NCBI RefSeq assembly: GCF_005222205.1
Contig: NZ_CP032349.1
Span: 310,001 to 374,000, forward strand
DNA length: 64,000 bases
Direction of reading: 5' to 3'
Source of the DNA: Azospirillum brasilense
GTDB taxonomy: Bacteria > Pseudomonadota > Alphaproteobacteria > Azospirillales > Azospirillaceae
Positions within the stretch are counted from its first letter, which is position 1. Each line of letters opens with the position of its first letter. The notes under the pieces are model-generated. The model made no database searches and had not been told where the DNA came from. It saw only the letters and a list, made by a program, of their open reading frames with translations. The position numbers were made by a program, and so were the translations under genes. Below are positions 7,740-53,046 of the stretch, piece after piece.

Positions 7740-9215
7740 TCATACCCCATCGGCCTCGCGGAAGGCGGCGCTGAGGTCACCGTAGAGGCGGCGGAACAGG
7801 CGGCGGCGCGGCGCCAGGGCGGCGGCCAGGGCCGGGTCCGGCTCCACGGTGTGACGGATCTCCAAGGGCCGGCACACGGTTTCCGGCTCCTCGCCCGTCA
7901 CCGCGAGGCGCGCCAGACGGGCCGCCCCGAAGGCCGGGCCGACCTCGCCCCCCGCCGGGTAGTCGAGCGGCCGGCCAAGCGCGCTCGCCAGGATGCGGCC
8001 CCACAGGGCGCTGCGCGCGCCACCGCCGATCACCAGGAAGCGTTCGACGCGTCCGCCGGCCTCCTCCAGGGCGTCCAGCCCGTCGGCGAAGGCGAAGGCC
8101 ACCCCCTCCAGCACGGCGCGGGCGAGCGCCCCGCGGTCGGTGTCGTGGGTCAGGCCGAAGAGGACGCCCTTGGCGTGCGGGTCGTTGTGCGGCGTGCGCT
8201 CCCCCGACAGATAGGGCAGGAAGACCAGCGCGCCGGGATCGCCCCCGTGAGATTCCGCCTCGCGCAGCAGCGCCGCCTCGTCCGCGGCGCCGGTCAGGCG
8301 GGCGGCGAAGGACAGGCAGCTCGCCGCGCTCAGCATCACCGACATCTGGTGCCAACGGTTGGGCAAGGCATGGCAGAAGGCATGCACGCCGCGTTCGGGG
8401 TTGGGCGCGAAGCGGTCGCCGCTGACGAACAGCACGCCCGAGGTGCCCAGCGACAGGAAGGCGCTGCCCGGCGCCACCACACCGACTCCCACCGCACCGG
8501 CCGCGTTGTCGCCGGCCCCCGCCGCCACCACGGTTCCCAGCGGAACGCCCCACTCGGCGGCGACCTCCGCCCTTAAGGCGCCGGAGGGCTGACACCCTTC
8601 GTACAGCGTCGGCATGTGCGCCTCGCCGAGCCCCGTGGCGGCCAGAAGCTCGTCCGACCACGCGCGCCGGCCGACGTCCAGCCACAGCGTGCCGGCGGAG
8701 TCCGACAGGTCCGAGGCGTGGTCGCCGGTCATGCGCAGGCGCAGCCAGTCCTTGGGCAGCAGCACCTTGGCGGTCGCTTTGAACCGGTCCGGCTCGTGCG
8801 CCGCGACCCACAGCAGCTTGGGCGCGGTGAAGCCGGGCATGGCGCGGTTCCCGGCGATGGCGCGCAGGTTGGGCGCACGGCGCTCCAGCTCCGCGCATTC
8901 CGCACCGCTGCGCCCGTCGTTCCATAGGATGGCCGGGCGCAGCACGCGGTCCTGCCGGTCGAGCAGGGTCGCCCCGTGCATCTGCCCCGACAGCCCTATC
9001 CCCCGCACCGCCGCCATCGCGTCGGGATGGGCGGCGCGCAGTCCGGCGACGGCGCGTCCGGTGGCGGCCCACCAGTCCTCCGGGTCCTGCTCCGACCACA
9101 GCGGGTGCGGGCGGCTGACCTCCAGCGGGGCGGTGGACTGGCCGACGAGGCGTTGCGCCGCGTCGACCAGCACCGCCTTGACGCCGGACGTTCCCAGGTC
9201 GATGCCGAGATACAT
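7740..9215 (-). CDS. xylB: Xylulokinase
   Basis: A 491-residue FGGY-family sugar kinase that phosphorylates D-xylulose to xylulose 5-phosphate for the pentose phosphate pathway. The start at 9215 gives MYLGIDLGTSGVKAVLVD, the standard phosphate-1 motif. GLSGQMHG and ILWNDGRS follow, then the second ATPase-domain motifs FLSLGTSGVLF and FLVIGGGARSALWGRILA near the C-terminus. It is the last gene of the minus-strand xylose operon, 28 bp after xylA, which strongly supports xylulokinase over other FGGY kinases. Confidence 0.95.
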   Translation of the reverse strand: MYLGIDLGTSGVKAVLVDAAQRLVGQSTAPLEVSRPHPLWSEQDPEDWWAATGRAVAGLRAAHPDAMAAVRGIGLSGQMHGATLLDRQDRVLRPAILWNDGRSGAECAELERRAPNLRAIAGNRAMPGFTAPKLLWVAAHEPDRFKATAKVLLPKDWLRLRMTGDHASDLSDSAGTLWLDVGRRAWSDELLAATGLGEAHMPTLYEGCQPSGALRAEVAAEWGVPLGTVVAAGAGDNAAGAVGVGVVAPGSAFLSLGTSGVLFVSGDRFAPNPERGVHAFCHALPNRWHQMSVMLSAASCLSFAARLTGAADEAALLREAESHGGDPGALVFLPYLSGERTPHNDPHAKGVLFGLTHDTDRGALARAVLEGVAFAFADGLDALEEAGGRVERFLVIGGGARSALWGRILASALGRPLDYPAGGEVGPAFGAARLARLAVTGEEPETVCRPLEIRHTVEPDPALAAALAPRRRLFRRLYGDLSAAFREADGV

Positions 9216-38826: not shown

Positions 38827-39909
38827 ATGGATTGGTGGATGATGACGAAGCCAAGCCGGTGGCTGCTCAAGGCCGCAGCCGCGCTGTCCGTCCTCGTGGT
38901 CCTCTATGGGGTGTGGCTGTTTCTGCGACCCGCGGGTCTGCCCGCCGGCCTGGCCAGCGGCAACGGCCGGATCGAGGCGGTCGAGATCGACATCGCCACG
39001 AAAACCGCCGGGCGGGTCGAGGACATCCTGGTCGATGAGGGCGATTTCGTCACGGCCGGGCAGGTGCTCGCCCGCATGGACACCGAGGTGCTCCAGGCCC
39101 AGGCCAAACAGGCCGAGGCGCAGAAGCAGCAGGCGGTGATCGGCGTCGAGGCCGCCCGCCATCAGGTGCTCCAGCGCCAGGCCGAACGCCAGTCGGCGCT
39201 GTCCCTGGTGGCCCAGCGCGAGGCCGAGCGGGACGTCGCCCAGAAGCAGCTCGCCCGGTCGGAGGAGCTGGAGGCGCGCGGCACGACGTCGCGGCAGGTC
39301 CTCGACACCGACCGCGCCCGCTTCGAGAGCGCAAACGCCGCGGTCAGCGCGGCCAAGGCTCAGGTCGCCGCGGCCGACGCCGCCATCGCCACCGCCGAGG
39401 CCCAGGTCGTCAACGCCGGGGCGGCGGTCGACGCCGCCGCGGCCACCATCGAGCGCATCCAGGCCGACATCCGGGACAGCACGCTCCGCTCGCCGCGCGA
39501 CGGCCGGGTGCAGTTCCGGGTGGCGCAGCCGGGCGAGGTGCTCGGTGCCGGCGGCCGGGTGCTGAACATGGTCGATCTCAGCGACGTCTACATGACCTTC
39601 TTCCTGCCGACGGAGGCCGCCGGGCGGGTGAGGATCGGCACCGAGGTGCGGATCGCCCTCGACGCCTTTCCGCAGTACGTCGTTCCCGCCAAGGCCACCT
39701 TCGTCGCCGACGTCGCCCAGTTCACCCCGAAGACGGTGGAGACGGCCAGCGAACGCCAGAAGCTGATGTTCCGGATCAAGGCGCAGATCCCGCCCCCCTT
39801 GCTCAAAAAATACATCCGCGACGTGAAGACCGGCTTGCCGGGGGTGGCCTATGTGCGGATCGATCCGGACACCGAATGGCCGGCCAACCTGCAAAACCTC
39901 GTGCCATGA
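38827..39909 (+). CDS. HlyD/YhiI-type membrane fusion protein for an ABC exporter
   Basis: About 360 residues if the ATG at 38827 is used; ATGs at 38839 and 38842 are equally possible because the ribosome site is weak. One membrane helix near the N-terminus ([20 protein letters not shown]) is followed by a lipoyl motif ([51 protein letters not shown]). A long Ala/Gln-rich coiled coil comes next (about 80-215), then [22 protein letters not shown]. Its stop overlaps the next gene's start (ATGA). Gene order MFP-RbbA-permease matches the YhiI-RbbA-YhhJ exporter of enteric bacteria. Confidence 0.92.
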
Positions 39910-42659
39910 GCGGTGCCGCCGACCGCTCCGCCGCATCACCCGTTGCGCGCCTGCGGGACGTCCGTCTGCGGTACGGGTCGGTCCGGGCGATCGACGGGGT
40001 CGGCCTGGACGTCCCGGCGGGGTGCGTCGTGGGGCTGATCGGCCCCGACGGCGTCGGCAAGTCCAGCCTGCTGTCGCTGATGTCGGGGGCGCGCGCCCTG
40101 CAGGAGGGGACGGTCGAGGTGCTGGGCGGCAGCATGGCCGAGGCGCGTCACCGCCGCGCCGTTTGCCCGCGCATCGCCTACATGCCGCAGGGCCTCGGCA
40201 GGAACCTCTACCCAACGCTGTCGGTCGTCGAGAATCTCGACTTCTTCGGGCGGCTGTTCGGCCAGGGCGGGGCCGAGCGCCAGAGGCGCATCGCCGACCT
40301 GACGCGGAGCACCGGCCTCGCGCCGTTCCTCGACCGGCCCGCCGGCAAGCTGTCCGGCGGCATGAAGCAGAAGCTCGGCCTGTGCTGCGCGCTCATCCAT
40401 GACCCGGATCTGCTGATCCTCGACGAGCCGACCACCGGCGTGGACCCGCTGTCGCGGCGGCAGTTCTGGGAGTTGATCGACCGCATAAGGGCGGACCGCC
40501 CCGGCATGAGCGTGGTGGTGGCCACCGCCTACATGGAGGAGGCGGCCCGCTTCGACTGGCTCGTCGCCATGGACGGGGGGCGCGTGCTGGCCACCGGCAG
40601 CCCGCGGGAGCTGTTGGACCGCACCGCGACCGCGACGCTGGAGGCGGCCTTCGTCGCGCTGATGCCCGAGGAGAAGCGCCGTGGGCACAGGGCGGTGACG
40701 ATCGTGCCGCGCACGGGGGACGCGGGCGACATCGCCATCGAGGCGAAGGGCCTGACCATGCGCTTCGGCGATTTCGTGGCGGTCGACCATGTCAGCTTCC
40801 GCATCCCGCGCGGCGAGATCTTCGGCTTCCTCGGCTCCAACGGCTGCGGCAAGACGACGACGATGAAGATGCTGACCGGCCTGCTCCCGCCGAGCGAGGG
40901 CGAGGCCCGGTTGTTCGGGCAGCCGGTGGACGCCGGCAACATCGCGACGCGCCGGCGCGTCGGCTACATGTCGCAGGCCTTCTCGCTCTATTCGGAACTG
41001 ACCATCCGGCAGAACCTGGAGCTGCACGCCCGCCTGTTCCAGGTGCCCGAGGACGTCCTTCCCGGCCGGGTGGCGGCGGTGGCGGCGCGCTTCGGCCTTA
41101 CCGACGCCATGGAGGCGCTGCCGGACCGGCTGCCGCTCGGCCAGCGCCAGCGCCTGTCCCTCGCCGTCGCGATGGTCCATGAGCCCGCCCTGCTGATCCT
41201 GGACGAGCCGACGTCGGGCGTCGACCCGATCGCGCGCGACGCCTTCTGGGAGATCATGATCGGGCTGGCGCGCCGCGACCGGGTGACGATCTTCATCTCG
41301 ACGCATTTCATGAACGAGGCCGAGCGCTGCGACCGCATCTCGTTGATGCACGCCGGCCGCGTGCTGGTCAGCGACACGCCGGCGGCGCTCGTCGCGAAGC
41401 GCGGCGCCGCGACGCTGGAGGAGGCCTTCATCGGTTATCTGGAGGAGGCCGTGGCGGAGCGCCGGGAAAGCGACGCGGCGGCGGCCCCCGATGATCCCCG
41501 GCAGGCCCCGCCGCCCGCCGCCGCTCCCTCCGGCGAGCGCGCGGAAGACCGCGTCTTCAACCCGCGGCGCATGCTCAGCTACTCGCGTCTGGAGGCGCTG
41601 GAGTTGCGGCGCGATCCCATCCGGGCGACGCTCGCCCTGCTCGGCAGCCTCCTGCTGATGGTCATCATGGGCTACGGCATCAACATGGATGTCGAGGACC
41701 TGTCCTTCGCCGTCCTGGACCGGGACCAGACGACGGTGAGCCGCGACTACACGCTCAACCTCGCCGGCTCCCGCTATTTCATCGAACGGGCGCCGATCGC
41801 CGACTACGAGGATCTCGACCGGCGCATGCGGGCGGGCGACCTTTCCCTGGCGCTGGAAATCCCGCCGGGCTTCGGGCGTGACGTTGCCCGCGGGCGTCCG
41901 GTCCAGATCGGGGCGTGGATCGACGGTGCCATGCCGACGCGCGCCGAGACGGTCAACGGCTACGTTCAGGGCATGCACAGCCAGTGGCTGGCCTCCCAAA
42001 CCAGCGCGCCCGGCCTCGCCACCATCGAGACCCGCTTCCGCTACAATCCGGACGTCGAGAGCCTGAAGGCCATCGTGCCGGCGGTCATCCCGATCCTGCT
42101 GCTGCTGATCCCGGCGATGCTGGCCGCGCTCAGCGTCGTGCGCGAGAAGGAACTCGGCTCGATCATCAACCTCTACGTCACGCCGGTCACCAGGCTTGAG
42201 TTCCTGCTCGGCAAGCAACTGCCCTATGTCGGGCTGGCCATGCTCAACTTCCTTCTCATGGTGGCGCTGGCGGTCACCGTCTTCGGCGTGCCGCTGACCG
42301 GGAACATCCTGGCCCTGTCCACCGGCGCCGTGCTCTACACCGTCGCGGCGACGGCCATGGGGTTGCTGATGTCCAGCTTCATGCGCAGCCAGATCGCCGC
42401 CATCTTCGGCACCGCCATCGCGACGCTGATCCCGGCGACGCAGTATTCCGGCATGATTGATCCCGTTGCCTCCCTGGGGGGTGCCGCGGCGCTCATCGGG
42501 GAGGTCTACCCGACCACCCATTTCCTGACCATGTCCCGGGGCGTCTTCTCGAAGGCCCTGGGTTTCGGGGATTTGCACGCCGCCTTCGTCGCGCTTCTGG
42601 TCGCCGTGCCGGTCCTGATCGGGGCGAGCGCGCTGCTGCTGAAGAAGCAGGAGACCTGA
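39906..42659 (+). CDS. RbbA-like fusion of two ABC ATPase domains and an ABC-2 permease
   Basis: A 917-residue protein, matching RbbA in length and layout. NBD1 (about 10-225) has Walker [10 protein letters not shown], signature [11 protein letters not shown] and Walker [17 protein letters not shown]2 (about 280-505) has Walker [10 protein letters not shown] near residue 310, Walker [14 protein letters not shown] and a degenerate signature, [11 protein letters not shown], in place of LSGGQ. After a Pro/Ala linker comes an ABC-2-type membrane domain (about 545-917) with a large extracytoplasmic loop ([24 protein letters not shown]) and membrane helices in [31 protein letters not shown]. It probably exports a compound with the HlyD-type and second permease proteins. 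The E. coli protein was reported to associate with ribosomes; nothing here tests that. Confidence 0.94.
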
Positions 42660-42662
42660 GCG

Positions 42663-43784
42663 ATGCAGGCGTCCAACGTCCTGAACCTCGGCGTCAAGGA
42701 GCTGCGCAGCCTCGCCCGCGATCCGATGCTTCTGGTTCTCATCGTCTATTCCTTCACGCTGGCGATCTACACGGCGGCGACCGCCATTCCGGAGACGCTC
42801 AACAAGGCGGCGATCGCCATCGTCGACGAGGACCGCTCGCCGCTGTCCGCCCGCATCACCGGCGCCTTCTATCCGCCCTATTTCCTCCCGCCGGTCCTGA
42901 TCACCCCCGCCGAGATGGACGCCCGCATGGACGCCGGGCTCGACACCTTCGCGCTCGACATTCCGCCCAACTTTCAGCGCGACGTCCTCGCCGGGCGCCG
43001 GCCGGCGATCCAGCTCAACGTCGACGCGACCCGGATGACCCAGGCCTTTTCCGGGAGCGGCTACATCCAGCAGATCGTCAGCGGGGAGGTCACCGCCTTC
43101 ATGCAGCGCTACCGGGGTGAACAGGCCCTGCCGGTCGACCTCGCCCTGCGGGTCCGCTTCAATCCAACAATGAACAAGGGCTGGTTCGGTTCGGTGATCG
43201 AGGTCATCAACCAAGTGACGATGCTGTCGATCATCCTGACCGGCGCCGCCCTGATCCGGGAGCGCGAGCACGGCACCATTGAGCATCTGCTGGTGATGCC
43301 GGTCACGCCCGCCGAGATCATGGTCGGCAAGATCTGGTCGATGGCGCTGGTCGTGCTCGTCGCCTGCGCCGTCTCGCTGGTCTTCGTCGTCCAGGGGCTG
43401 CTGGCGGTTCCCATCGGCGGATCGGTCGCCCTGTTCCTGGCCGGTGCCGCCCTGCACCTGTTCGCCACCACCTCGATGGGAATTTTCCTCGGGACGGTGG
43501 CGCGCAGCATGCCGCAGTTCGGCATGCTGATGATCCTGGTGATGGTGCCGCTGCAGATGCTGTCGGGGGGCATGACGCCGCGGGAGAGCATGCCCGCCCT
43601 CGTCCAGGACGTGATGCTCGCCGCGCCGACGACGCACTTCGTCGCGCTGGCCCAGGCCATCCTGTACCGCGGCGCCGGCCTCGACGTGGTCTGGCCGCAA
43701 TTCCTCGCGCTGATCGGGATCGGCGCGGCCTTGTTCAGCCTGTCGCTGGCGCGCTTCCGCAAGGCCATCAGCCGGATGTCGTGA
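42663..43784 (+). CDS. ABC-2-type permease (YhhJ-like)
   Basis: A 373-residue inner-membrane protein. An N-terminal helix (DPMLLVLIVYSFTLAIYTAATA) and a large periplasmic domain (IAIVDEDRSPLSARITGAFYPPYFLPP; FALDIPPNFQRDVLAGRRPAIQLNVDATRM) precede a membrane block. That block contains LIREREHGTIEHLLVMPVTPAEIMVGKIWSM, the ABC-2 coupling helix. It starts four bases after the RbbA-like gene and would pair with that protein's own membrane half. A strong hairpin marks the operon's end. Confidence 0.93.
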   Translation: MQASNVLNLGVKELRSLARDPMLLVLIVYSFTLAIYTAATAIPETLNKAAIAIVDEDRSPLSARITGAFYPPYFLPPVLITPAEMDARMDAGLDTFALDIPPNFQRDVLAGRRPAIQLNVDATRMTQAFSGSGYIQQIVSGEVTAFMQRYRGEQALPVDLALRVRFNPTMNKGWFGSVIEVINQVTMLSIILTGAALIREREHGTIEHLLVMPVTPAEIMVGKIWSMALVVLVACAVSLVFVVQGLLAVPIGGSVALFLAGAALHLFATTSMGIFLGTVARSMPQFGMLMILVMVPLQMLSGGMTPRESMPALVQDVMLAAPTTHFVALAQAILYRGAGLDVVWPQFLALIGIGAALFSLSLARFRKAISRMS

Positions 43785-43832: not shown

Positions 43833-46163
43833 TCACCATTTCAGCGTGGCGTGCACCAGGAAGGAACGGCCGGCTTCCAGATAGCGGCGGCGGTCGGCCG
43901 AGGTCTCGCTGACGCCGACGACGTTGACGTAGTTGTAATAGCCCTGGTTGAACAGGTTGTTGACCGAGGTGCCGAGGCTGATGTTTTCCGTCGGGTTGAC
44001 GTAGGCGGCCAGATCCACCGTGGTGTAGGCCGGGGCCTTCAGGGAGGTCGGGTTGCTCACGTCGTCCGCCTTCTTCGCCATCACATGGGTGGCGGCGACC
44101 TGTGCGCCCCAGAAATCGTCGGCCGCGGTGTAGGACAGGCCGGCGTTGACGGTGAAGGGCGCCACCTCGTCGATGGCGGTGCCGGCGTCGATGTCGAAGC
44201 CGCGGGCGAAGGCCGCCGCGCCGAACAGCGCCCAGCCCGGCCGGAACCGCCACTCGCCCTTGCCCTCGGCGCCGAAGATTTCGACCTTCGAGACGTTCTG
44301 CGCCTGATAGCGCAGGATGCCGCCGGCGCCGGTGCCGACCGCCTTCTGCAGGATGAAGTCGCTGTAGCGGTTGTAGAAGCTGGAGACCTGGAAGCTCGAC
44401 CCGTCGCTGAACTTGCCGCGCAGGCCGGCCTCGACGCCGTCGCTGCTCTCCGGCTTCAGGTCGGCGTTGGGCAGCACCTCGTAGCCGTAGGTCGGGTTGG
44501 AGAAGCCGAGGTTGGCGTCGTCGTAGGGCGGCGCGCGGAAGCCGTGCGCGTACTGGCCGAACAGCGCGTATTCCTTGGTAAGGTCGTAGGTCGCGCCGAA
44601 CTTCGGCGACAGGGCCAGCTTGTCCAGCTTTTCCGGCTGGGTGGACGGCCGGGCGGCGAAATAGGCGGCGTCCTTGTCCGGGTCCATCCGGTAATAGTCG
44701 AGCCGCAGCGCCGGCACCAGCCGCAGCCGGTCGATGGTGATCTCATCCTGCACATAGGCCGAGGCCATGAGCGTGTCGGTGTTGGGGAAGGTGCGGCTGG
44801 GGTAGGTGTCGCCGTTGTAGCTCTTCGCGGTGGCCCCGGTCGCGAGGTTGGTCAGCGTCACGTCGCGCATCCGCTCGGTGCGGATGGAATCGACGCCGAA
44901 GCCGTAGGAGATGCTGTTGCGCAGCCCGAACAGTTGGGTGTCGGAGCGCAGGTTGACGGCGGCGCCGACGATCGTCTGCTTGGATTCGTTGCTGGTGGAT
45001 TCCCGCAGGCCGGTGCCGGCGGTGAACAGCGGGCTGGTGGAGGTGGCGACGCGGGCGTTGCGGGTGCGCTTCTCCTCGCGGTCGAACTGGGTGCCGTAGA
45101 GCCGCCAGTCGATGTGGTCGATGAAGCCGATGGGCGCGTCGTGCGAATGCTCCAGGCTGACGCGCCAGCGGGTCGCCGTGTCGTCGGCGGTGGAGCCGGT
45201 GAAGGCGCCGCGCGTCATCCGCATCGGCACCATGGAGAAGATGTAGCTGGCGCTGCCGCCGACGTCGTTGCGCAGCGTCGTGTCGGTGCTGCGGTGGAAA
45301 TACTCGCCGGTCAGCGTCACCTTGTCCGGCCCGTGGTCCCAGACCAGCTTGGCGAGGCCGTTGTTGCCCTCATAGTCCTGCGGGTTGCGGTAGGCCTTGT
45401 CCTTGGACTTGTACTCCTCCCCGTCGCGGCGCGTGTAGATGCCGAGCAGGGAGAAGTCGCCGGAGCGCAGCACCCCCGTGCCGGTTTCCGACAGGCTGGA
45501 ATCGACGCTGTCGTAGGTCGTCTTCAGCGAGACGAAGCTGTCGCGGCCGGGCCGCAGATAGTCGGCCGGGTCCTTGGTCACATAGGTCACCACGCCGCCC
45601 AGCGCGTCCGAGCCGTAGAGCGCCGAGGCCGGGCCGCGCACGATCTCCACCTGCTTGACCGAGTCCAGATCGACCACGTCGCGGTTGTAGCCGGCGGAGG
45701 GGGCGGCGGAGGCCGGTGATTCCGGAAGCCGCGTGCCGTCGACCTGCATCAGGATGCGGTTGTTGCTGATGCCGCGGATGGTGAAGCCGCCGGCCCCGGC
45801 GCGGGACGGGGAGTTGCTGACCGTCACGCCGGGCTCGTAGCGCGGCAGGTCCTGGAGGCGATGGACGCCGCGCTTCTCAAGCTCGTAGTCGGGGATGACC
45901 GACACCGTGCCCGTGTTCTCGCCCACGCTGCGCATCCCGCGCTCGCCATAGACCGTCACCGCGTCGAGGATGGTCGGGGGCGGCGCGGTGGTCGCCTGCG
46001 CGGTCTGGGTGGCGGTCTGACCAGCAGCCTGCTGAGTCTGCTGCTGCGCTTGGGCGGTGGGGGCCAACAGCGTCAGGGCGGAAGCCGACAGCCACAGCGC
46101 CGCGCGCAGGCGGGAGCGGGACGGCCGGAGGGGAGGGCGGTGGGACACGGGTGGCTCGATCAT
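43833..46163 (-). CDS. TonB-dependent heme/hemoglobin receptor
   Basis: A 776-residue outer-membrane receptor. An N-terminal signal runs to about residue 40 (LWLSASALTLLAPTAQAQ). A possible TonB-box region (ILDAVTVYGERG) is followed by the plug (DLPRYEPGVTVSNSPSRAGAGGFTIRGISNNRILMQVDGTRLPES; VEIVRGPASALYGSDALGGVVTYVTKDP). The beta-barrel ends in the aromatic terminus LVHATLKW. FRAPPYDDANLGF and NPNL-type repeats match the hemoglobin/transferrin/lactoferrin receptor group. It is next to hutX and the heme ABC genes, which supports heme as ligand. A dyad at 46213-46233 lies 50 bp before its start. No tonB or exbBD genes are in the window. Confidence 0.93.
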   Translation of the reverse strand: MIEPPVSHRPPLRPSRSRLRAALWLSASALTLLAPTAQAQQQTQQAAGQTATQTAQATTAPPPTILDAVTVYGERGMRSVGENTGTVSVIPDYELEKRGVHRLQDLPRYEPGVTVSNSPSRAGAGGFTIRGISNNRILMQVDGTRLPESPASAAPSAGYNRDVVDLDSVKQVEIVRGPASALYGSDALGGVVTYVTKDPADYLRPGRDSFVSLKTTYDSVDSSLSETGTGVLRSGDFSLLGIYTRRDGEEYKSKDKAYRNPQDYEGNNGLAKLVWDHGPDKVTLTGEYFHRSTDTTLRNDVGGSASYIFSMVPMRMTRGAFTGSTADDTATRWRVSLEHSHDAPIGFIDHIDWRLYGTQFDREEKRTRNARVATSTSPLFTAGTGLRESTSNESKQTIVGAAVNLRSDTQLFGLRNSISYGFGVDSIRTERMRDVTLTNLATGATAKSYNGDTYPSRTFPNTDTLMASAYVQDEITIDRLRLVPALRLDYYRMDPDKDAAYFAARPSTQPEKLDKLALSPKFGATYDLTKEYALFGQYAHGFRAPPYDDANLGFSNPTYGYEVLPNADLKPESSDGVEAGLRGKFSDGSSFQVSSFYNRYSDFILQKAVGTGAGGILRYQAQNVSKVEIFGAEGKGEWRFRPGWALFGAAAFARGFDIDAGTAIDEVAPFTVNAGLSYTAADDFWGAQVAATHVMAKKADDVSNPTSLKAPAYTTVDLAAYVNPTENISLGTSVNNLFNQGYYNYVNVVGVSETSADRRRYLEAGRSFLVHATLKW

Positions 46164-46212: not shown

Positions 46213-46233
46213 TGCGATTGCGTCTTATTCGCA
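46213..46233. promoter_or_regulatory. Iron-box-like dyad upstream of the TonB receptor
   Basis: TGCGA (46213-46217) and TCGCA (46229-46233) are perfect inverted arms around an 11-base spacer, 50-70 bp ahead of the receptor start. It is a weak match to the 19-bp Fur consensus, better read as an alphaproteobacterial variant, possibly for a Fur or Irr-type regulator. It shares its GCGAAT half with the stronger boxes at 46856 and 49081. Confidence 0.4.
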
Positions 46234-46271: not shown

Positions 46272-46820
46272 TCAGTCGGTGCGGCGCTCCGCTCCGCACA
46301 GGCGGGCCTTCAGCGCCTCGAACCGCTCCACCTGATCGGGCAGAAGCTGGCGCGCGGCGTCGCGGCCGGCGAAGACCTTGAACATCGCTTCCCCGTCGCC
46401 GTTGAAGAAGACGACGGAGGCGCTGTCGGCGCTGCCCATGAAGGGCCGGCGGACGAAGCCGACGGTGCGGCAGCGATCCAGCCGGATGTGGCCGCCGATC
46501 GGGCTGCCGCCGGCGAGGTTGTAGAAGCCGCGCCCGAACTGCCCGCGCGGCAGCGGCCCCTTGCATTCCAGGACGAGGTCGGCGCTGTGCACCAGCACGG
46601 TGACCGTGCCCCACTCCGCCATGTCCAGCATCGCCGCCTCGGCCGTTTCCCCCGGTGCGAAGGCACGGAAGCCGTCCGGCAGGCATTCGGTGACGGCGAG
46701 CAGGCTGACGCCCGTCTCGGCCGCGACCGCCTCCAGCACGCCGTTCGGCGCGGCGGCGAGGCGGTCGCGCAGGGCGGCCAGCGTGTCGGGGGATGGGGCG
46801 GTGGAACTGCTGTGCGGCAT
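46272..46820 (-). CDS. hutX: HutX/HuvX-family cytosolic heme-utilisation protein
   Basis: About 182 residues from the ATG at 46820 (MPHSSSTAPSPDTLAALRDRLAAAPNGVLEAVAAETGVSLLAVTECLPDGF). An ATG at 46853 adds 11 residues, but it lies three bases from the Fur-like box and leaves almost no room for a leader; a TTG at 46886 would lie inside the promoter. The body has EWGTVTVLVHSADLVLECKGPLPRGQFGRGFYNLAGGSPIGGHIRLDRC and FVRRPFMGSADSASVVFFNGDGEAMFKVF, as in HutX/ChuX proteins that bind and pass on heme in the cytosol. It lies between the histidine kinase and TonB receptor genes. Confidence 0.87.
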   Translation of the reverse strand: MPHSSSTAPSPDTLAALRDRLAAAPNGVLEAVAAETGVSLLAVTECLPDGFRAFAPGETAEAAMLDMAEWGTVTVLVHSADLVLECKGPLPRGQFGRGFYNLAGGSPIGGHIRLDRCRTVGFVRRPFMGSADSASVVFFNGDGEAMFKVFAGRDAARQLLPDQVERFEALKARLCGAERRTD

Positions 46821-46855
46821 GGAAGCGGTCCGAAGCGTCGGTTGCGAACTCATTT

Positions 46856-46874
46856 GAGAATAGTTCGCATTCGC
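46856..46874. promoter_or_regulatory. Fur-like box upstream of hutX
   Basis: Read on the minus strand, GCGAATGCGAACTATTCTC matches 12 of 19 positions of the classical Fur consensus by hand alignment. It lies 36 bp before the preferred hutX start, in the gap after the histidine-kinase stop. Its presence inside a same-strand series suggests hutX and the receptor can be transcribed separately in response to iron. Confidence 0.5.
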
Positions 46875-46907
46875 AAATTGGCTCAACGGCGCTTCGCTTA
46901 ATTTCGC

Positions 46908-48374
46908 TTAATGGAGAAGGCCGGTGATGGCGCCGGGAACGGCGGGGGCAGTCACCGGGCGGCCCCGGCGTTCCAGCCGGACCACCGCGCGCAGGCCCGG
47001 CCCGTTGTCCTCCAGCCGCAGGGCGCCGCCGTGCAGCCGGGCGATGGCGTCCACGATGGCGAGGCCGAGCCCATGGCCGGGCACGCGGTCCGACGGGTCG
47101 AGCCGGCAGAAGCGCTGCACGGCGAGCGCGCGCTGGCCGGGCGCCAAGCCCCGGCCGCGGTCGGCCACCACGATCTCGTTCCAGCCGTCGCGCCGCCCGG
47201 CCGACAGGTGCAGCGCCTCGCCCGGCGCGTATTTCAGGGCGTTGTCCACCAGATTGGCGATGGTCTGGAACAGCAGCGTGCGGTCGCCGCGCAGATCGAG
47301 GTCGCGCTCCACGGCGACGGTGATGACGGTGCCGGAGCCCTCGGCCAGCGGCAGGTAGGATTCGGCCACCTCGTCCAGCAGCGCCTTCGCGTCGAGCGGC
47401 TCCACCGCCAGGGTGCAGCGCCCGGTCTCGATTTCGCCCAGCCGCATGATGGCGCGGAACAGGTGCTGGATGCGCCGCGTCTCCTCGATCCCCTCCTCCA
47501 ACTCGCGGCGCAGGGCGTCGTCGGGGCAGTTCTCGGCGATGGTGACCAGCCGGTTGTGCAGGTGGGTCAACGGCGTGCGCATCTCGTGCGCGATGCTGCT
47601 CGACACGCTGGAGACCTCCTCGACCAGCCGGGTCACGCGGTCGAGCGTGCGGTTGATCTCGCGGCCGAGCCGCGCGAACTCGTCGTCCGGGCCGGTGATG
47701 GCGACGCGGCGGTCGCGGTCGCCCGCCGCGTAGGAGGTCAGCGCCATGGTGATGGCTGACACCCGGCGCAGCGTGCCCGCGCTGAAACGGATGCCGAAGG
47801 CGACGCTGGTCAGCAGGAACACCAGCACGCCGCAGCCCGCCGCCAGCGGCACGGCGCGGAGCTGGTCGAGCATGGGTTGGAGGTCGTAGGCGTTGATGTA
47901 GCGCCCGCCGTCGCCCAGCCGCACCACCATCCCGCGGACCTTCCAACCGTCGCCGCGCTGGTCGATGCGGCCGGTCTCGCAGGGGGCCGGACCGCCGCAG
48001 GCGACGACGGCGAGCAGGCGCCTGGCCATCGCCTCGTCGCCGTAGAGCACGCGCCCGTCGCGGTCGATCACCATGCGCCGCCGTGTGCCTTCCGGCGCGA
48101 AGCGCTCGCGGCGGCGCAGTTCGGCGACCAGAGCGGCGGCGTCGCCGAAGCCGCCGTGCAGGCGTTGCGTTTCCTGGTCGCGCTCCAGCAGGTCGCCAAC
48201 ATGCTCGTTGACCAACTCCACCAGCAGATCGCGGCTCCACAGCACGGCGGCGCCGGCCACCACCAGGAAGACCGCGCCGATGGCCATGGCCTGGCGGAAG
48301 CTGCGCGTGTCGAGATGGCGGCGGACTCTCTGGACCCAGGATGGGCCAACGTCGCGCGGCTTAGCCCAGGACAT
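46908..48374 (-). CDS. Membrane-bound sensor histidine kinase in the heme locus
   Basis: A 488-residue two-component kinase. TM1 is about residues 29-46 and TM2 about 176-195, enclosing a periplasmic sensor of roughly 130 residues (MVIDRDGRVLYGDEAMARRLL; DGWKVRGMVVRLGDGGRYI). A HAMP segment (about 196-250) leads to the phosphoacceptor His263 in SSIAHEMRTPLTHLHNRL. The ATPase has LVDNALKYAP (N box), VVADRGRGLAPG (G1) and GHGLGLAIVDAIARLHGG (G2). It overlaps the response-regulator gene by 14 bp, so the two form a cognate pair. The sensor domain is not recognised; the setting suggests heme, iron or envelope stress. Confidence 0.94.
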   Translation of the reverse strand: MSWAKPRDVGPSWVQRVRRHLDTRSFRQAMAIGAVFLVVAGAAVLWSRDLLVELVNEHVGDLLERDQETQRLHGGFGDAAALVAELRRRERFAPEGTRRRMVIDRDGRVLYGDEAMARRLLAVVACGGPAPCETGRIDQRGDGWKVRGMVVRLGDGGRYINAYDLQPMLDQLRAVPLAAGCGVLVFLLTSVAFGIRFSAGTLRRVSAITMALTSYAAGDRDRRVAITGPDDEFARLGREINRTLDRVTRLVEEVSSVSSSIAHEMRTPLTHLHNRLVTIAENCPDDALRRELEEGIEETRRIQHLFRAIMRLGEIETGRCTLAVEPLDAKALLDEVAESYLPLAEGSGTVITVAVERDLDLRGDRTLLFQTIANLVDNALKYAPGEALHLSAGRRDGWNEIVVADRGRGLAPGQRALAVQRFCRLDPSDRVPGHGLGLAIVDAIARLHGGALRLEDNGPGLRAVVRLERRGRPVTAPAVPGAITGLLH

Positions 48375-49029
48375 AGCCGATGGCCCGCACGGTCTTCAGA
48401 AGCGGCGGGTCGAAATCCTTGTCGATCTTCGCCCGCAGCTTGAAGACATGGACCTCCACCAGATTGGTCGGCGGGTTGAAGCCATAGCCCCAGGCCTTCT
48501 CCAGCAGCATGCTGCGGGTCACGGTGCGGCCGGGGTTGCTCATCAGGATGTGCAGGAGCTTGAACTCCTTGTCGGTCAGTTCGATGGGCACGCCGCGCCG
48601 GGTCACCTGCCGGCGGGTGACGTCCATCACCAGATCGGCGACCTCCAGAACGTCGCCGGCACCGGCCAGGGCGGCGCGGCGGGTCGCCAGATGCTCCAGC
48701 CGGACCAGCAGCTCGGCGAAGTCGAAGGGCTTGCCCAGATAATCGTCGGCCCCGGCGCGCAGCCCGGCCACCCGTTCCGTCGTCTCGTCCAGGGCGGACA
48801 GGACCAAAACCGGCGGGTGGCGGGTGCCCTGCAGGCGCCTCAGCACCTCCATGCCGTCCAGCTTGGGCAGCATGCGGTCCAGCACCACCACGTCGAACGC
48901 CTCCTCGCGCAGCAGGCGCAGCGCGTCCTCGCCGTCGCCGGCGAAGCGGCAGGAATGGCCGGAGCCGCCGAGCTTGGCCCCGATCCAGTAGCTGACCGCC
49001 GCGTCGTCCTCAACGATCAGAACACGCAC
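48361..49029 (-). CDS. OmpR/PhoB-family response regulator in the heme locus
   Basis: A 222-residue regulator. The receiver domain (1-115) has acidic residues Asp8/Asp9, phosphoacceptor Asp51 (VVVLDRMLP), Ser78 and Lys100 (YLGKPFDF). The C-terminal winged helix (about 125-222) has LTDKEFKLLHILMSNPGRTVTRSMLLEKAWGYGF and NLVEVHVFKLRAKIDKDFDPPLLKTVRAIGYVL. The gene starts 62 bp after hmuV, and a Fur-like box overlaps the end of hmuV just upstream. Together with the kinase it may link heme or iron status to envelope gene expression (inference). Confidence 0.95.
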   Translation of the reverse strand: MRVLIVEDDAAVSYWIGAKLGGSGHSCRFAGDGEDALRLLREEAFDVVVLDRMLPKLDGMEVLRRLQGTRHPPVLVLSALDETTERVAGLRAGADDYLGKPFDFAELLVRLEHLATRRAALAGAGDVLEVADLVMDVTRRQVTRRGVPIELTDKEFKLLHILMSNPGRTVTRSMLLEKAWGYGFNPPTNLVEVHVFKLRAKIDKDFDPPLLKTVRAIGYVLG

Positions 49030-49080: not shown

Positions 49081-49099
49081 GCTATTAATAATCATTCGC
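49081..49099. promoter_or_regulatory. Fur-like box overlapping the hmuV stop, upstream of the response regulator
   Basis: On the minus strand GCGAATGATTATTAATAGC matches 13 of 19 Fur-consensus positions by hand alignment. It covers the last codons and stop of hmuV and lies 52 bp before the response-regulator start. The surrounding bases are AT-rich for this genome. This would give the two-component system its own iron-responsive promoter. Confidence 0.55.
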
Positions 49100-49913
49100 A
49101 ATCGATTTTTCCAGACGCCGCGGCGCGTCCGGTGGCGGCGTAGACCACGCCCTCCGCCTCCGGCAGGTCGAGGCGGACGAAGGCCGTGCCGAAGACGCGC
49201 TCCAGCACCGGAACCGGCAGGCCGGCCATGGACCCGGCCCAGGCGACGCGCCCGCCGGCCAGCAGCAGCCCGTCGTCGGCGTAGCGCGCCGCCAGCGTCA
49301 GGTCGTGCAGGATCACCGCGCAGCCGCCGCCGGTCCGCTCCACCCAGTCGCGCGCCGCCCGCAGCAGATGGTGCTGGTGGGCGGGGTCGAGGCTCGCCGT
49401 CGGCTCGTCCAGCAGCAGATAGGACGGCCCCGCCACGTCGCGCCCGTGCCGTCCCGCGGCCAGCTGGGCGAGCGCGCGGGCGAAGGCGACGCGCTGGCGC
49501 TCGCCGCCGGAGAGCTGGGGCATCAGCCGGCCAGCCAGCCCTCCGGCCCCGGCCCGGATCAGGCAGTCGGCGATCAGGGCGCGCCGGTCGCCGGGGCGGA
49601 TCAGCCAGGGCTCGGTCGCCAGCTCCATCACCTCCTCCACCGAGAAGGCGAAGGCGACTTGCTGGTGTTGCGCCACCAGGGCGCGGCGGACGGCCAGCCG
49701 CGGCGCCGGGATGGCCGCCATTTCCACCCCGTCGAGCAGGGCGCGCCCGGCGGTCGGCCGCCGCTCCCCGGAGAGGAGGGAGAGCAGGGTGGATTTGCCG
49801 GCCCCGTTGGGTCCCAGGATGGCCAGCATCCGGCCCGGCCGCACCGCGGCGGTGACGCCGTCGAGCAGGCGGGCGCGGCCGATGGTCAGGCCGGCGTCGA
49901 TCGCTTCCAGCAT
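49092..49913 (-). CDS. hmuV: Hemin ABC transporter ATP-binding protein
   Basis: A 273-residue ATPase of the FecE/HmuV group. The start at 49913 (MLEAIDAGLTIGRARLLDGV) follows GGGAGGGACC. Motifs: Walker A GPNGAGKST, Q-loop VAQHQQVAFAFSVEEVMELA, signature LSGGERQRVAFARAL, Walker B YLLLDEPTASLDPAHQ and switch VILHDLTLAARYAD. The insertion RAL-AQLAAGRHGRDVAGPSYLLL before Walker B is typical of HmuV. It starts two bases after the HmuU stop and works with HmuT/U to import heme into the cytosol. Confidence 0.95.
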   Translation of the reverse strand: MLEAIDAGLTIGRARLLDGVTAAVRPGRMLAILGPNGAGKSTLLSLLSGERRPTAGRALLDGVEMAAIPAPRLAVRRALVAQHQQVAFAFSVEEVMELATEPWLIRPGDRRALIADCLIRAGAGGLAGRLMPQLSGGERQRVAFARALAQLAAGRHGRDVAGPSYLLLDEPTASLDPAHQHHLLRAARDWVERTGGGCAVILHDLTLAARYADDGLLLAGGRVAWAGSMAGLPVPVLERVFGTAFVRLDLPEAEGVVYAATGRAAASGKIDCE

Positions 49914-49915
49914 GG

Positions 49916-51025
49916 TCAGGTCCCTCCCAGCGCGCCGGCGCGGCGGCGCAGAAGCCACAGGAAGAAGGGACCGCCGACGGTGCCCAGCAGCAGGCCGGCC
50001 GGCACGTCGGCCGGGGCGGCGATGGTGCGGGCCATCGTGTCGGCCAGGACCAGCAGGACCGCTGCGGCCAGCGCCGTCGCCGGCATCAGCCGGCGGTGCA
50101 CCGGTCCCAGCAGGATGCGCATGACGTGCGGCACGATCAGCCCGACGAAGCCGATCAGGCCGGACACCGCCACCGCCGCCCCGACGCCCAGCGCCACCAG
50201 AAGCACCGTGCGCACGGCGAAGCGGTGCGGGTCGAGGCCCTGGAGGAAGGCCTCCCGCTCGCCCATGGCGAACAGGTCGAGCCGCCGCGCCCCGGCCAGC
50301 AGCCCGGCGGTCGCCAGTCCCATCAGCACCATCGCCGGCCCGATCTGCGCCCAGCTCGATCCGCCGAAGCCGCCCATCATCCAGAAGGTCATCTGGCGCA
50401 GCGCGAGGTCGTCGCCGAGGTAGCTGAACAGCCCGATGCCGGCCCCGCCCATGGCGTTCACCGCGATGCCGGCCAGCAGCATGGTGGCGGGGGAGTTGCG
50501 CCCGTCGCGGCGGGAGATCGCCAGGATCAGCACGGTGGCGGCCAGCGCGCCGAGGAAGGCGGCCAGCGGCAGCACGGTGGCGAGCGACAGGCCGCTGCGC
50601 GCCAGCCCCAGCCCCGACACCCCCAGCACCATGGCGGCGGAGCCGGCCAGCGCCGCCCCGCTCGACACGCCGACCAGCCCGGGATCGGCCAGCGGGTTGC
50701 GGAACACGGCCTGCAGCGCCACCCCGGCCACGCCCAGCGTCACCCCGACCGCGGCGGCCAGGACGATGCGCGGCAGGCGCAGCATGGTCAGCACCATCCA
50801 GTCGCGCTCCGACAGCGGCGTTCCGGGCAGGCCGAGCAGGGCGGCGAGGTGGGACAGGCTGCGGTCGAGCGGGACGGACACGCCGCCCGTCGCGACGGCG
50901 GTCAGCACGGCCAGCGCCAGCGCCACGGCCAGTGCCGCCAGCACCGGGACGAGGGGCGGGCGCCGGAAGGACGGCGCCGCCCGGTCCCCTTTCCGGGAGG
51001 ATGGCATGGACAAGGTCAGGCTCAT
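49916..51025 (-). CDS. hmuU: Hemin ABC transporter permease
   Basis: A 369-residue FecCD-family membrane protein with about ten hydrophobic segments. Hallmarks: LRLPRIVLAAAVGVTLGVAGVALQAVFRNPLADPGLVGVSSGAALAGS, FWMMGGFGGSSWAQI, and LIGFVGLIVPHVMRILLGPVHRRLMPATALAAAVLLVLADTMARTIAAPADVPAGLLLGTVGGPFFLWLL. Its ATG overlaps the HmuT stop (ATGA). A Met at 51007 is an alternative start. Confidence 0.95.
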   Translation of the reverse strand: MSLTLSMPSSRKGDRAAPSFRRPPLVPVLAALAVALALAVLTAVATGGVSVPLDRSLSHLAALLGLPGTPLSERDWMVLTMLRLPRIVLAAAVGVTLGVAGVALQAVFRNPLADPGLVGVSSGAALAGSAAMVLGVSGLGLARSGLSLATVLPLAAFLGALAATVLILAISRRDGRNSPATMLLAGIAVNAMGGAGIGLFSYLGDDLALRQMTFWMMGGFGGSSWAQIGPAMVLMGLATAGLLAGARRLDLFAMGEREAFLQGLDPHRFAVRTVLLVALGVGAAVAVSGLIGFVGLIVPHVMRILLGPVHRRLMPATALAAAVLLVLADTMARTIAAPADVPAGLLLGTVGGPFFLWLLRRRAGALGGT

Positions 51026-51909
51026 GGTTGTCCTTGAGGGGAGGTGCCCTGGACGCGGGTGAGTTCGGCGACCGCCTCGGCCGTGCGGGGGCCGAGCCCC
51101 ATCAGCAGCGCGCCGTCCACCACCGCCACCCGCCGGGCCTTGGCCGCCGGGGTCAGGGCGATCTGCGGCGTCGCCAGGAACGGGTCGAGCCCGCCGGAGC
51201 GGTCGACCAGCGACCGGCTGACCAGCAGGATGTCGGGTGCGGCGGCCAGGACGGCCTCCGACGACATCGGCACATAGTCGCGCTCCACCTCCAGGGCGTT
51301 GCGCCCCCCGGCCATGGCGATCAGCGCGGCGGGGACGGAGCGGCTGCCCGCCGCCATCAGACCACCGGGCCCGCCGCCGACCACGCCGAGCACGACCGGC
51401 GCGCCGTCCTTCGCTCCGGACTTGGCGTCGGACTTGGCGGCGACGGCGGCCAAGGCGGCGAGGTCGCGATTTAGCGAGTCCGCCAGGCGCCGCCCCTCCG
51501 CCTCCCGGCCGAGCAGGCGGGCGACCCGCTCCACCTTGTCGAGCAGCCCGGCGAGAGTCGGCGTTTCCGGAACGACCTCCACCGTGACGCCGAGCGCCCG
51601 AAGCTGGTCGAGCGTTGTCTCGGGGCCGGCGCCCTGGATCGCCAGGACGTGGGTCGGGGCCAGCGACATCACGCCCTCCGCCGAAAGGGCGCGCATGTAG
51701 CCGACGTCGGGCAGGCCGTTCACCGGCTGCGGGTAATGGCTGCTGGTGTCGCGCCCAACGACGGAGCCGCCGTCGCCGAGCGCGTAGACCAGCTCGGTCA
51801 CCGGCGGGCCGACGGTGACGATCCGCCGCTCCGCCGCCCCGGCCAGGGTGGTGGCGGTGAGCGCGAGGGTGGCGGCGATCGCCGCGGGGAGAAAGCGCAG
51901 GCGCCTCAT
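51022..51909 (-). CDS. hmuT: Periplasmic hemin-binding protein
   Basis: A 295-residue binding protein with a signal peptide (MRRLRFLPAAIAATLALTATTLAGAAE) starting at 51909. The helical-backbone fold of class III binding proteins is visible: RIVTVGPPVTELVYALGDGGSVVGRDTSSHYPQPVNGLPDVGYMRALSAEGVMSLAPTHVLAIQGAGPETTLDQL. The Tyr-containing DVGYMRAL segment is where HmuT/ShuT proteins coordinate heme. The gene lies between hemS and hmuU. A longer upstream frame overlaps hemS and is rejected. Confidence 0.93.
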   Translation of the reverse strand: MRRLRFLPAAIAATLALTATTLAGAAERRIVTVGPPVTELVYALGDGGSVVGRDTSSHYPQPVNGLPDVGYMRALSAEGVMSLAPTHVLAIQGAGPETTLDQLRALGVTVEVVPETPTLAGLLDKVERVARLLGREAEGRRLADSLNRDLAALAAVAAKSDAKSGAKDGAPVVLGVVGGGPGGLMAAGSRSVPAALIAMAGGRNALEVERDYVPMSSEAVLAAAPDILLVSRSLVDRSGGLDPFLATPQIALTPAAKARRVAVVDGALLMGLGPRTAEAVAELTRVQGTSPQGQP

Positions 51910-51926: not shown

Positions 51927-52901
51927 TCACAGGGACGCGGCGAGCGCGCGCCACTCCGCCCGTTCCGGCTTGTCCTCGTCGCGCTGGCCGCACAGGATGG
52001 CCGCGTTGTCGCCCCGGTCGTCGTACAGCTCGACGGTGGTGATGCCGCCCTTGTCGGTCGGCTTGTGGACGACCCAGGCGCTGGACAGCCGGGCCTGGAT
52101 GGCGCGCAGGGTGAAGCCGGGGTCGTCGATGCGCAGCAGCCCGTCGGCCGTCGTCGGATGGTCCACCGTACCGGTGTGGATCTGGATGCAGCCGGCGTTG
52201 CCGACGAAGATCATGATGTCCAGCCGGCGGTCGCGCGCCGCCTCCAGCAGCGGCAGGAGGGTGGTGGCGGGCAGTTCCCGCGCGAAGCCCGTCCCGGCGA
52301 GGCGCAGCGCCTGCCGGCGCCCGACCCCGAAGGTCCTCAGCATGCCGAAGAACTCGTGCACGTCGGTCATCGCGCTCCAGGCGGCGCGCAGCCCCTCCAC
52401 GTCGATCTCGGCGTCGGGCCGCTCGGCGGCGGGGACGGGCAGAGGTTCCAGGGCCGGCGCGTCCTGGTCGGCGGCGCGGTGCAGGATGAGGAAGGCGTCC
52501 CAAGCGGCGGCGTTCGTCTCAGCGGTGCGGTGGATGGCGTGGACGGCGCGGCCGTGCCGGTCGAAGACACGGATGGCCTCGGCCTCGCCGTCCGTCTCCG
52601 GCGTGTGGACGGTGATGGCCCAGTGGCGCGGGAAGACGCGCAGGTCGACCTCGCGGTTCAGCACGATCAAGGCCGGGCCGTTGCCGTCGACGTTGCCGAA
52701 GCGCCCGGTCTTCTCGTGGGTGATGCTGCGGTTGCCGGTGACGACGCGGACCGTCCCCAGGACGTCCAGCTTCCTCAGGGCGTCGGTCCAATCCACCTCA
52801 AGCCGCGTCGGGCGGGCGGAGGCGTCGTTCTCCCAGCCGGGGAGGGTGGACAGGATCGGATCGGCAGTCGGAAGGACGGTCGGCAGGCGGGTGTCGGGCA
52901 T
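51927..52901 (-). CDS. hemS: Hemin-degrading/heme-trafficking factor (HemS/HmuS family)
   Basis: A 324-residue cytosolic protein made of two repeated halves: RVVTGNRSITHEKTGRFGNVDGNGPALIVLNREVDLRVFPRHWAIT and VGNAGCIQIHTGTVDHPTTADGLLRIDDPGFTLRAIQARLSSAWVVHKPT. Each half ends in AIHRT.../VVHKPT-type segments known from HemS/ChuS. Members bind incoming heme and either degrade it or pass it on. It is the first gene of the heme uptake operon, with a good Fur-like box 71 bp before its start. Confidence 0.93.
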   Translation of the reverse strand: MPDTRLPTVLPTADPILSTLPGWENDASARPTRLEVDWTDALRKLDVLGTVRVVTGNRSITHEKTGRFGNVDGNGPALIVLNREVDLRVFPRHWAITVHTPETDGEAEAIRVFDRHGRAVHAIHRTAETNAAAWDAFLILHRAADQDAPALEPLPVPAAERPDAEIDVEGLRAAWSAMTDVHEFFGMLRTFGVGRRQALRLAGTGFARELPATTLLPLLEAARDRRLDIMIFVGNAGCIQIHTGTVDHPTTADGLLRIDDPGFTLRAIQARLSSAWVVHKPTDKGGITTVELYDDRGDNAAILCGQRDEDKPERAEWRALAASL

Positions 52902-52971: not shown

Positions 52972-52990
52972 GATCATGAGAAGCATTATC
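52972..52990. promoter_or_regulatory. Fur box upstream of hemS
   Basis: On the minus strand GATAATGCTTCTCATGATC matches 15 of 19 positions of the classical Fur consensus by hand alignment and is nearly self-complementary. It lies 71-89 bp before hemS in otherwise AT-richer DNA. This is the strongest iron-box candidate in the window and should govern hemS-hmuTUV. Confidence 0.65.
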
Positions 52991-53046
52991 AGTTACAAGG
53001 CGCCGATCATTAACCGGCATTAATCGCCCGGCGCCCACCGGAACCG

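Follow-up and report, generated by a model that had tools for sequence, protein, structure and literature searches.

The heme uptake locus of Azospirillum brasilense carries a two-component system, comprised of an OmpR/PhoB-type response regulator (RR) and a sensor histidine kinase (HK), and the reading preferred here, at a rough probability of 0.55, is that this pair and Fur jointly control heme uptake in answer to heme or a heme-linked cue. For heme uptake loci of Proteobacteria the usual explanation is a Fur-family repressor or an ECF sigma factor. The present reading draws on the conserved placement of the pair, on rare conserved repeats and Fur-like boxes at the promoters of the locus, and on the recurrence of the same arrangement in relatives.

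The window, that is, the whole 64-kb stretch of DNA that was analysed, is part of a 667-kb contig of a 7.2-Mb genome in six contigs, and its nearest relatives are A. brasilense, A. argentinense and Azospirillum sp. TSH58, the last of which has a plasmid annotation with a gene order identical to that of the heme locus of the window. Pfam and NCBIfam profile matches identify the following genes, all on the minus strand and in this order:

51927-52901, minus strand: hmuS, HemS/ChuX-type heme carrier or degrader (Pfam HemS, 9e-53)
51022-51909, minus strand: hmuT, periplasmic heme-binding protein (Pfam Peripla_BP_2)
49916-51025, minus strand: hmuU, FecCD permease (Pfam)
49092-49958, minus strand: hmuV, heme ABC ATPase (best NCBIfam match 235.6 bits, under the cut-off of 261)
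48361-49029, minus strand: RR, OmpR/PhoB-type response regulator of 222 residues with a GTG start (Pfam)
46908-48374, minus strand: HK, sensor histidine kinase of 488 residues (Pfam, alignments, models)
46272-46886, minus strand: hutX open reading frame (NCBIfam HutX equivalog, 184 bits against a cut-off of 110)
43833-46163, minus strand: TonB-dependent heme/hemoglobin receptor (TIGR01786, 398 bits against a cut-off of 324)

Coordinates and domain matches thus bear out an earlier note on this DNA, which had placed both regulatory genes between hmuV and hutX on the same strand. The reading frames of RR and HK share 14 bp. The start of hutX at 46886, a TTG that opens the longest frame, is probably too early, since a conserved promoter lies inside that frame and hutX is shorter as recorded for a close relative; the true start would be at about 46820. 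The product of the RR gene matches Response_reg (1.1e-24, 87 bits) and Trans_reg_C (3e-24, 85 bits), each above the Pfam cut-off, and so presents the receiver and winged helix of an OmpR/PhoB-type regulator. Its partner matches HisKA (6.6e-8, 32.9 bits) and HATPase_c (1.5e-18, 67.7 bits), also above cut-off, along with a weak HAMP match of 22.1 bits against a cut-off of 25.

A search of the locus genes with Pfam revealed no ECF sigma factor, nor is one annotated at the locus of the TSH58 relative, and Pfam assigns to the receptor a plug and barrel only, with no N-terminal signalling domain found. A surface signalling locus of the HasIS or HxuIR kind was rejected on these two grounds. The receptor gene is met by a convergent plus-strand cluster (39876-43784) that encodes a two-domain ABC ATPase fused to a permease, together with a second ABC-2 type permease; its TSH58 counterpart is annotated as rbbA-like and lies beside HlyD and RND genes.

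The promoters of the locus bear two kinds of putative control element, Fur-like boxes and tandem TTAA repeats. For the former, all 19-mers of the window were scored against the classical consensus GATAATGATAATCATTATC. The elements, with the predicted promoter elements next to them, are:

53008-53023, minus strand: candidate RR operator upstream of hmuS, TTAATGCCGGTTAATG, 10-bp direct repeat
52993-52998, minus strand: -35-like TTGTAA of hmuS, predicted promoter element
52972-52990, minus strand: Fur-like box of hmuS, GATAATGCTTCTCATGATC, 16/19, the best in the window and kept in 13 species
49081-49099, minus strand: Fur-like box over the hmuV stop codon, upstream of RR, 14/19
46896-46911, minus strand: candidate RR operator upstream of hutX, TTAAGCGAAATTAAGC, 10-bp direct repeat overlapping the HK stop codon
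46881-46886, minus strand: -35-like TTGAGC of hutX, predicted promoter element
46856-46874, minus strand: weaker Fur-like box of hutX, 12/19, a score met elsewhere in the window too
46214-46232, minus strand: Fur-like box of the receptor gene, with no TTAA repeat; clearer in distant species as GCGAATAATAATCAATAGC

The box over the hmuV stop, which the earlier note had pointed out, is real in that it is the second-best match of the window to the consensus, and with the two best boxes standing at hmuS and at RR the description of the pair as embedded in a Fur-controlled heme locus is supported as well.

Evidence on the regulon comes from the TTAA repeats. Those of hmuS and hutX each adjoin a Fur-like box, and in each the second TTAA begins 15 bp before the TTG of the -35-like element, with the same spacing across species. 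In the aligned intergenic regions the conserved blocks read ATTAATGCCGGTTAATGA at hmuS and ATTAAGCGAAATTAAGCGAA at hutX, where L022 and L023 have TGAA in place of one TTAA; they stand out from surrounding intergenic sequence that is hardly alignable between species. Within each Azospirillum locus (10-18 kb) the exact TTAA-N6-TTAA is confined to these two places, the repeat being absent from the receptor and RR promoters. Across the six contigs of the 7.2-Mb genome the same pattern has 13 sites, two of which are those of hmuS and hutX; 13 sites scattered at random would give 0.018 in a given 10-kb locus, and the probability of two or more is about 2e-4. The refined form TTAABS-N4-TTAABS fits at hmuS and hutX alone in the genome and at none of the other 11 sites (0/11), but since composition predicts about one such site, the argument lies in placement and conservation rather than in number. 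The neighbours tested at the other 11 sites include genes for acetate kinase, a family-20 glycosyltransferase, a dehydrogenase, an MFS protein, an RTX-repeat protease-like protein and a cellulase, and no iron or heme gene was among them. The repeats thus supply independent promoter evidence that ties the regulator to hmuS and hutX, and direct control of both genes by RR appears likely. From the distribution of boxes and repeats over the promoters, the design seems to be one in which Fur alone acts on the receptor and RR-HK, and Fur plus RR on hmuSTUV and hutX.

Within the genus, 13 of 45 Azospirillum genomes encode an HK orthologue and 32 lack one, and the 13 are exactly those with the hmuS-hutX locus. 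The orthologues form two groups, about 95-98% and 67-71% identical. HmuS/HutX-type proteins are encoded in 15 of the 45 genomes, namely the 13 HK-bearing ones and two others, in which hmuSTUV is of a different type (39-48% identical) and both hutX and HK are missing. The order hmuSTUV-RR-HK-hutX-receptor is collinear and complete in 12 of the 13, the contig of G005 ending just past the hutX start. As hmuV-RR-HK-hutX is kept in 13 species, the gene order is not peculiar to this strain, and the proposal of the earlier note, which a strain-specific order would have refuted, passes that check; the 13 loci share ancestry and are not independent of one another. A strict cut-off gave no further HK orthologue in 82 genomes of the order, and in other alphaproteobacterial heme loci, reached through HutX/HmuS matches, no comparable RR-HK turned up in the sequence inspected, for the most part stretches of only about 3.4 kb. 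A pattern-based search of public genomes returned only A. brasilense-type relatives and unrelated kinases. Two weak partial matches from a class-wide search with the sensor alignment were set aside, their response regulators being just 45-46% identical, as were plasmid matches from Variovorax and Polymorphobacter, which are other kinases in other contexts.

Relatives of the pair are found outside the genus. A plasmid search located a pair in Cupriavidus sp. EM10 (RR 61% and HK 42% identical over nearly full length) that has hmuVUTS and a TonB receptor gene about 1.2 kb away. The EM10 kinase gene (L123:8998-10431) is split over two frames in its record and is a single frame in related genomes. 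A search of the phylum yielded four full-length matches (416-609 bits), after which scores fall to 253 bits, mostly without coverage of the sensor, and a search of the family yielded five genomes of one genus, inferred to be Cupriavidus from close sequence similarity to EM10. In these five, with EM10 taken as equivalent to G1072, three place the pair beside hmuSTUV and three beside a heme oxygenase gene, none lacks both, and a prepilin-peptidase gene adjoins the pair in all five. The heme oxygenase gene is convergent with HK (L157:2436-3071; L167:8355-8942; L169, about 8491-9078). The repeat recurs here upstream of the TonB receptor as TTAAGCATTCTTAACG, followed by the Fur-like GAGAATCATTATCATTTG, and upstream of RR as TTAAGCAAAGTTAATC; a conserved, imperfect copy with one mismatch, TGAAGCAAGATTAACG, precedes the heme oxygenase gene.

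Three other relatives (L158:4660-17971, L159 and L160; HK 36-37% and RR 55% identical) also lie beside a prepilin-peptidase gene, and a Tad/Cpa pilus operon adjoins the pair in those checked by domain search. No heme genes were seen near the pair in these three, so that heme is not a context common to the whole family. Upstream of the first gene of the tad cluster stands TTAACGAATATTAATG or TTAAGCATTCTTAATG, followed by a Fur-like sequence, the two elements preceding the prepilin-peptidase gene; these genomes are richer in A+T, which makes chance repeats likelier there. The arrangement suggests that a pilus may be under iron/Fur and two-component control. In a tree that also included the next-best kinases, the twelve members tested group as a single clade with a support of 100/100, the Tad-linked L160 on a long branch.

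The preferred model may be set out as a sequence of steps. With iron plentiful, Fur would occupy the boxes upstream of hmuS, RR-HK, hutX and the receptor gene, and all would be repressed. Scarcity of iron would relieve Fur repression, and the receptor and RR-HK would be made. HK would then detect a periplasmic or inner-membrane cue tied to incoming heme, most likely heme itself, and phosphorylate RR, which in its phosphorylated form would bind the TTAANS half-sites, arranged in tandem at a 10-bp interval, that immediately precede the -35 elements of hmuS and hutX. This binding would activate hutX and hmuSTUV, the latter with read-through into RR-HK. The outcome would be an AND gate that opens when iron is low and the signal is present.

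Within this model, heme is only inferred as the signal. HK comprises a first transmembrane helix at about residues 26-47, a periplasmic part at about 48-172, a second transmembrane helix at about 175-197 (limits taken by eye from the sequence), a HAMP-like region, HisKA with H263, and HATPase_c. The earlier note had called the periplasmic domain unrecognised, which holds in that neither a Pfam family nor a convincing relative of known structure was found by sequence, the searches against PDB and Pfam returning weak, unrelated matches only, but a fold can be predicted for it. A monomer model built from 15 sequences (pLDDT 74) predicts a long helix extending the first transmembrane helix, a second helix and a five-strand sheet. 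Its structural neighbours are TlpB (Z 8.8), CusS (8.3) and PhoQ/CitA/DcuS (about 6), the first Foldseek match is the CusS (Ag/Cu) sensor, and chemoreceptors also rank at the top. The domain thus looks PDC/sCache-like, a common generic fold, and the likeness is one of fold level at best, as a Z near 8 can be reached by unrelated common folds. In the periplasmic part, an alignment of 15 kinases shows no variation at H58, V59, L110, L153, D155-G157, Y163, P167 and M168, of which H58, Y163 and M168 lie in sequence near both membrane ends and are candidate ligands only, for heme or a metal alike.

The same regulon may answer to another signal, with HK sensing iron, another metal such as copper (as in CusS) or membrane stress, an alternative that is the strongest of those considered and is itself rather unlikely. 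The fold match to CusS and the three candidate ligands would suit it, as would the Tad-linked relatives without heme genes nearby, and the best NCBIfam models of the pair are heavy-metal sensor and regulator families, TIGR01386 for HK (140.9 against a cut-off of 292.6) and TIGR01387 for RR (201.0 against 279.2). These scores, however, fall short of the curated cut-offs, at roughly half to three quarters of their value, for which reason membership in CusS/CopS/CzcS and CusR/CopR/CzcR was rejected, the neighbours read include no copper or other metal efflux genes, and the system sits with heme genes in two lineages.

Two further alternatives, each improbable, concern the repeats. By the detoxification logic of HssRS and ChrSA, which answer to toxic heme (PMC11442138, PMC11237747), RR would repress heme uptake at heme excess as a mirror image of HssRS; the sites, however, lie in all 13 species at about -61 to -46, upstream of -35 and clear of the core promoter, where activators typically bind. 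No better placed is the proposal that the repeats, being close to Fur-like boxes, serve another iron/heme regulator or a nucleoid protein, with RR-HK merely living in the operon. Ten-bp direct repeats upstream of -35 suit OmpR/PhoB-type regulators, which as a class bind direct repeats in tandem at a spacing of about 10-11 bp, and the repeat accompanies the pair from class to class, in front of differing target genes; no exact repeat was present in 262 kb of heme loci that lack the pair, a weak control with about 0.5 expected by chance. Finally, coincidental neighbourhood, in which RR-HK controls something unrelated and was carried along in a locus that the genus may have inherited as a single block, is highly improbable, given that rare, conserved repeats stand precisely at hmuS and hutX and that the pair is linked to heme genes in a betaproteobacterial genus as well.

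A joint system of RR-HK and Fur would, if true, give plant-associated Azospirillum a dedicated means, with a predicted operator, of telling 'iron low' from 'heme present', and the question is made testable at two named promoters, those of hmuS and hutX. Whether one signal governs both iron supply and pilus formation is a separate question, prompted by the Tad-linked relatives. More tentatively, the pairs may represent an as yet undescribed proteobacterial family of Fur-gated two-component systems, marked by its own sensor domain and by the operator TTAANS-N4-TTAANS next to a Fur box, which would sense periplasmic heme and switch on heme uptake in Azospirillum, heme uptake and heme oxygenase in the Cupriavidus type, and Tad-pilus genes in other lineages. 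Were this so, iron starvation and heme would drive surface attachment in the Tad-linked lineages.

Heme-linked two-component systems have already been described in Gram-positives and in Porphyromonas; a search of the open-access literature found no report on the Azospirillum pair. Reviews list HssRS, ChrSA and HrrSA, along with Has/Hxu sigma-factor signalling for uptake (PMC11442138, PMC12670364), and the Leptospira system Hklep/Rrlep influences heme synthesis (PMC2266917). CusRS/CopRS/CzcRS are the nearest family models by score, with the CusS sensor among the top fold matches, but the Azospirillum pair misses their curated cut-offs and has no copper genes among its neighbours. HrrSA and ChrSA of Corynebacterium respond to heme and are linked to an iron regulator network, that of DtxR, but they are Gram-positive and their kinases have six transmembrane helices (PMC11442138). 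Has/Hxu of Pseudomonas resembles the proposed model in that heme brings about positive control of a heme receptor locus (PMC12670364), exerted there through a signalling receptor and a pair of ECF sigma and anti-sigma factors, none of which is seen in the Azospirillum locus. SbiTRS of Stenotrophomonas, a proteobacterial two-component system that is under Fur and serves to acquire iron, differs in supporting stenobactin-mediated iron use rather than hemin, in its membrane protein SbiT and in its neighbours (PMC9769818). HaeSR of Porphyromonas gingivalis, compared by description, is a Gram-negative two-component system that controls hemin acquisition genes, but it belongs to another phylum and its regulator is described as both activating and repressing gingipains and at least three transport systems (PMC3764172). 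A similar general layout is seen in HssRS of Staphylococcus and Bacillus, with a HisKA kinase of two transmembrane helices, a PDC-like extracytoplasmic domain, which in the Azospirillum kinase is a predicted one, and a regulator tied to heme; HssS has been modelled as PDC-like, with heme held at the membrane interface by arginines and phenylalanines (PMC11237747). This shared layout does not make HK a heme sensor, and the two systems differ in what they control: HssRS induces the heme efflux genes hrtBA in Gram-positives, whereas the Azospirillum pair, a proteobacterial system, would act on uptake genes that carry Fur-like boxes.
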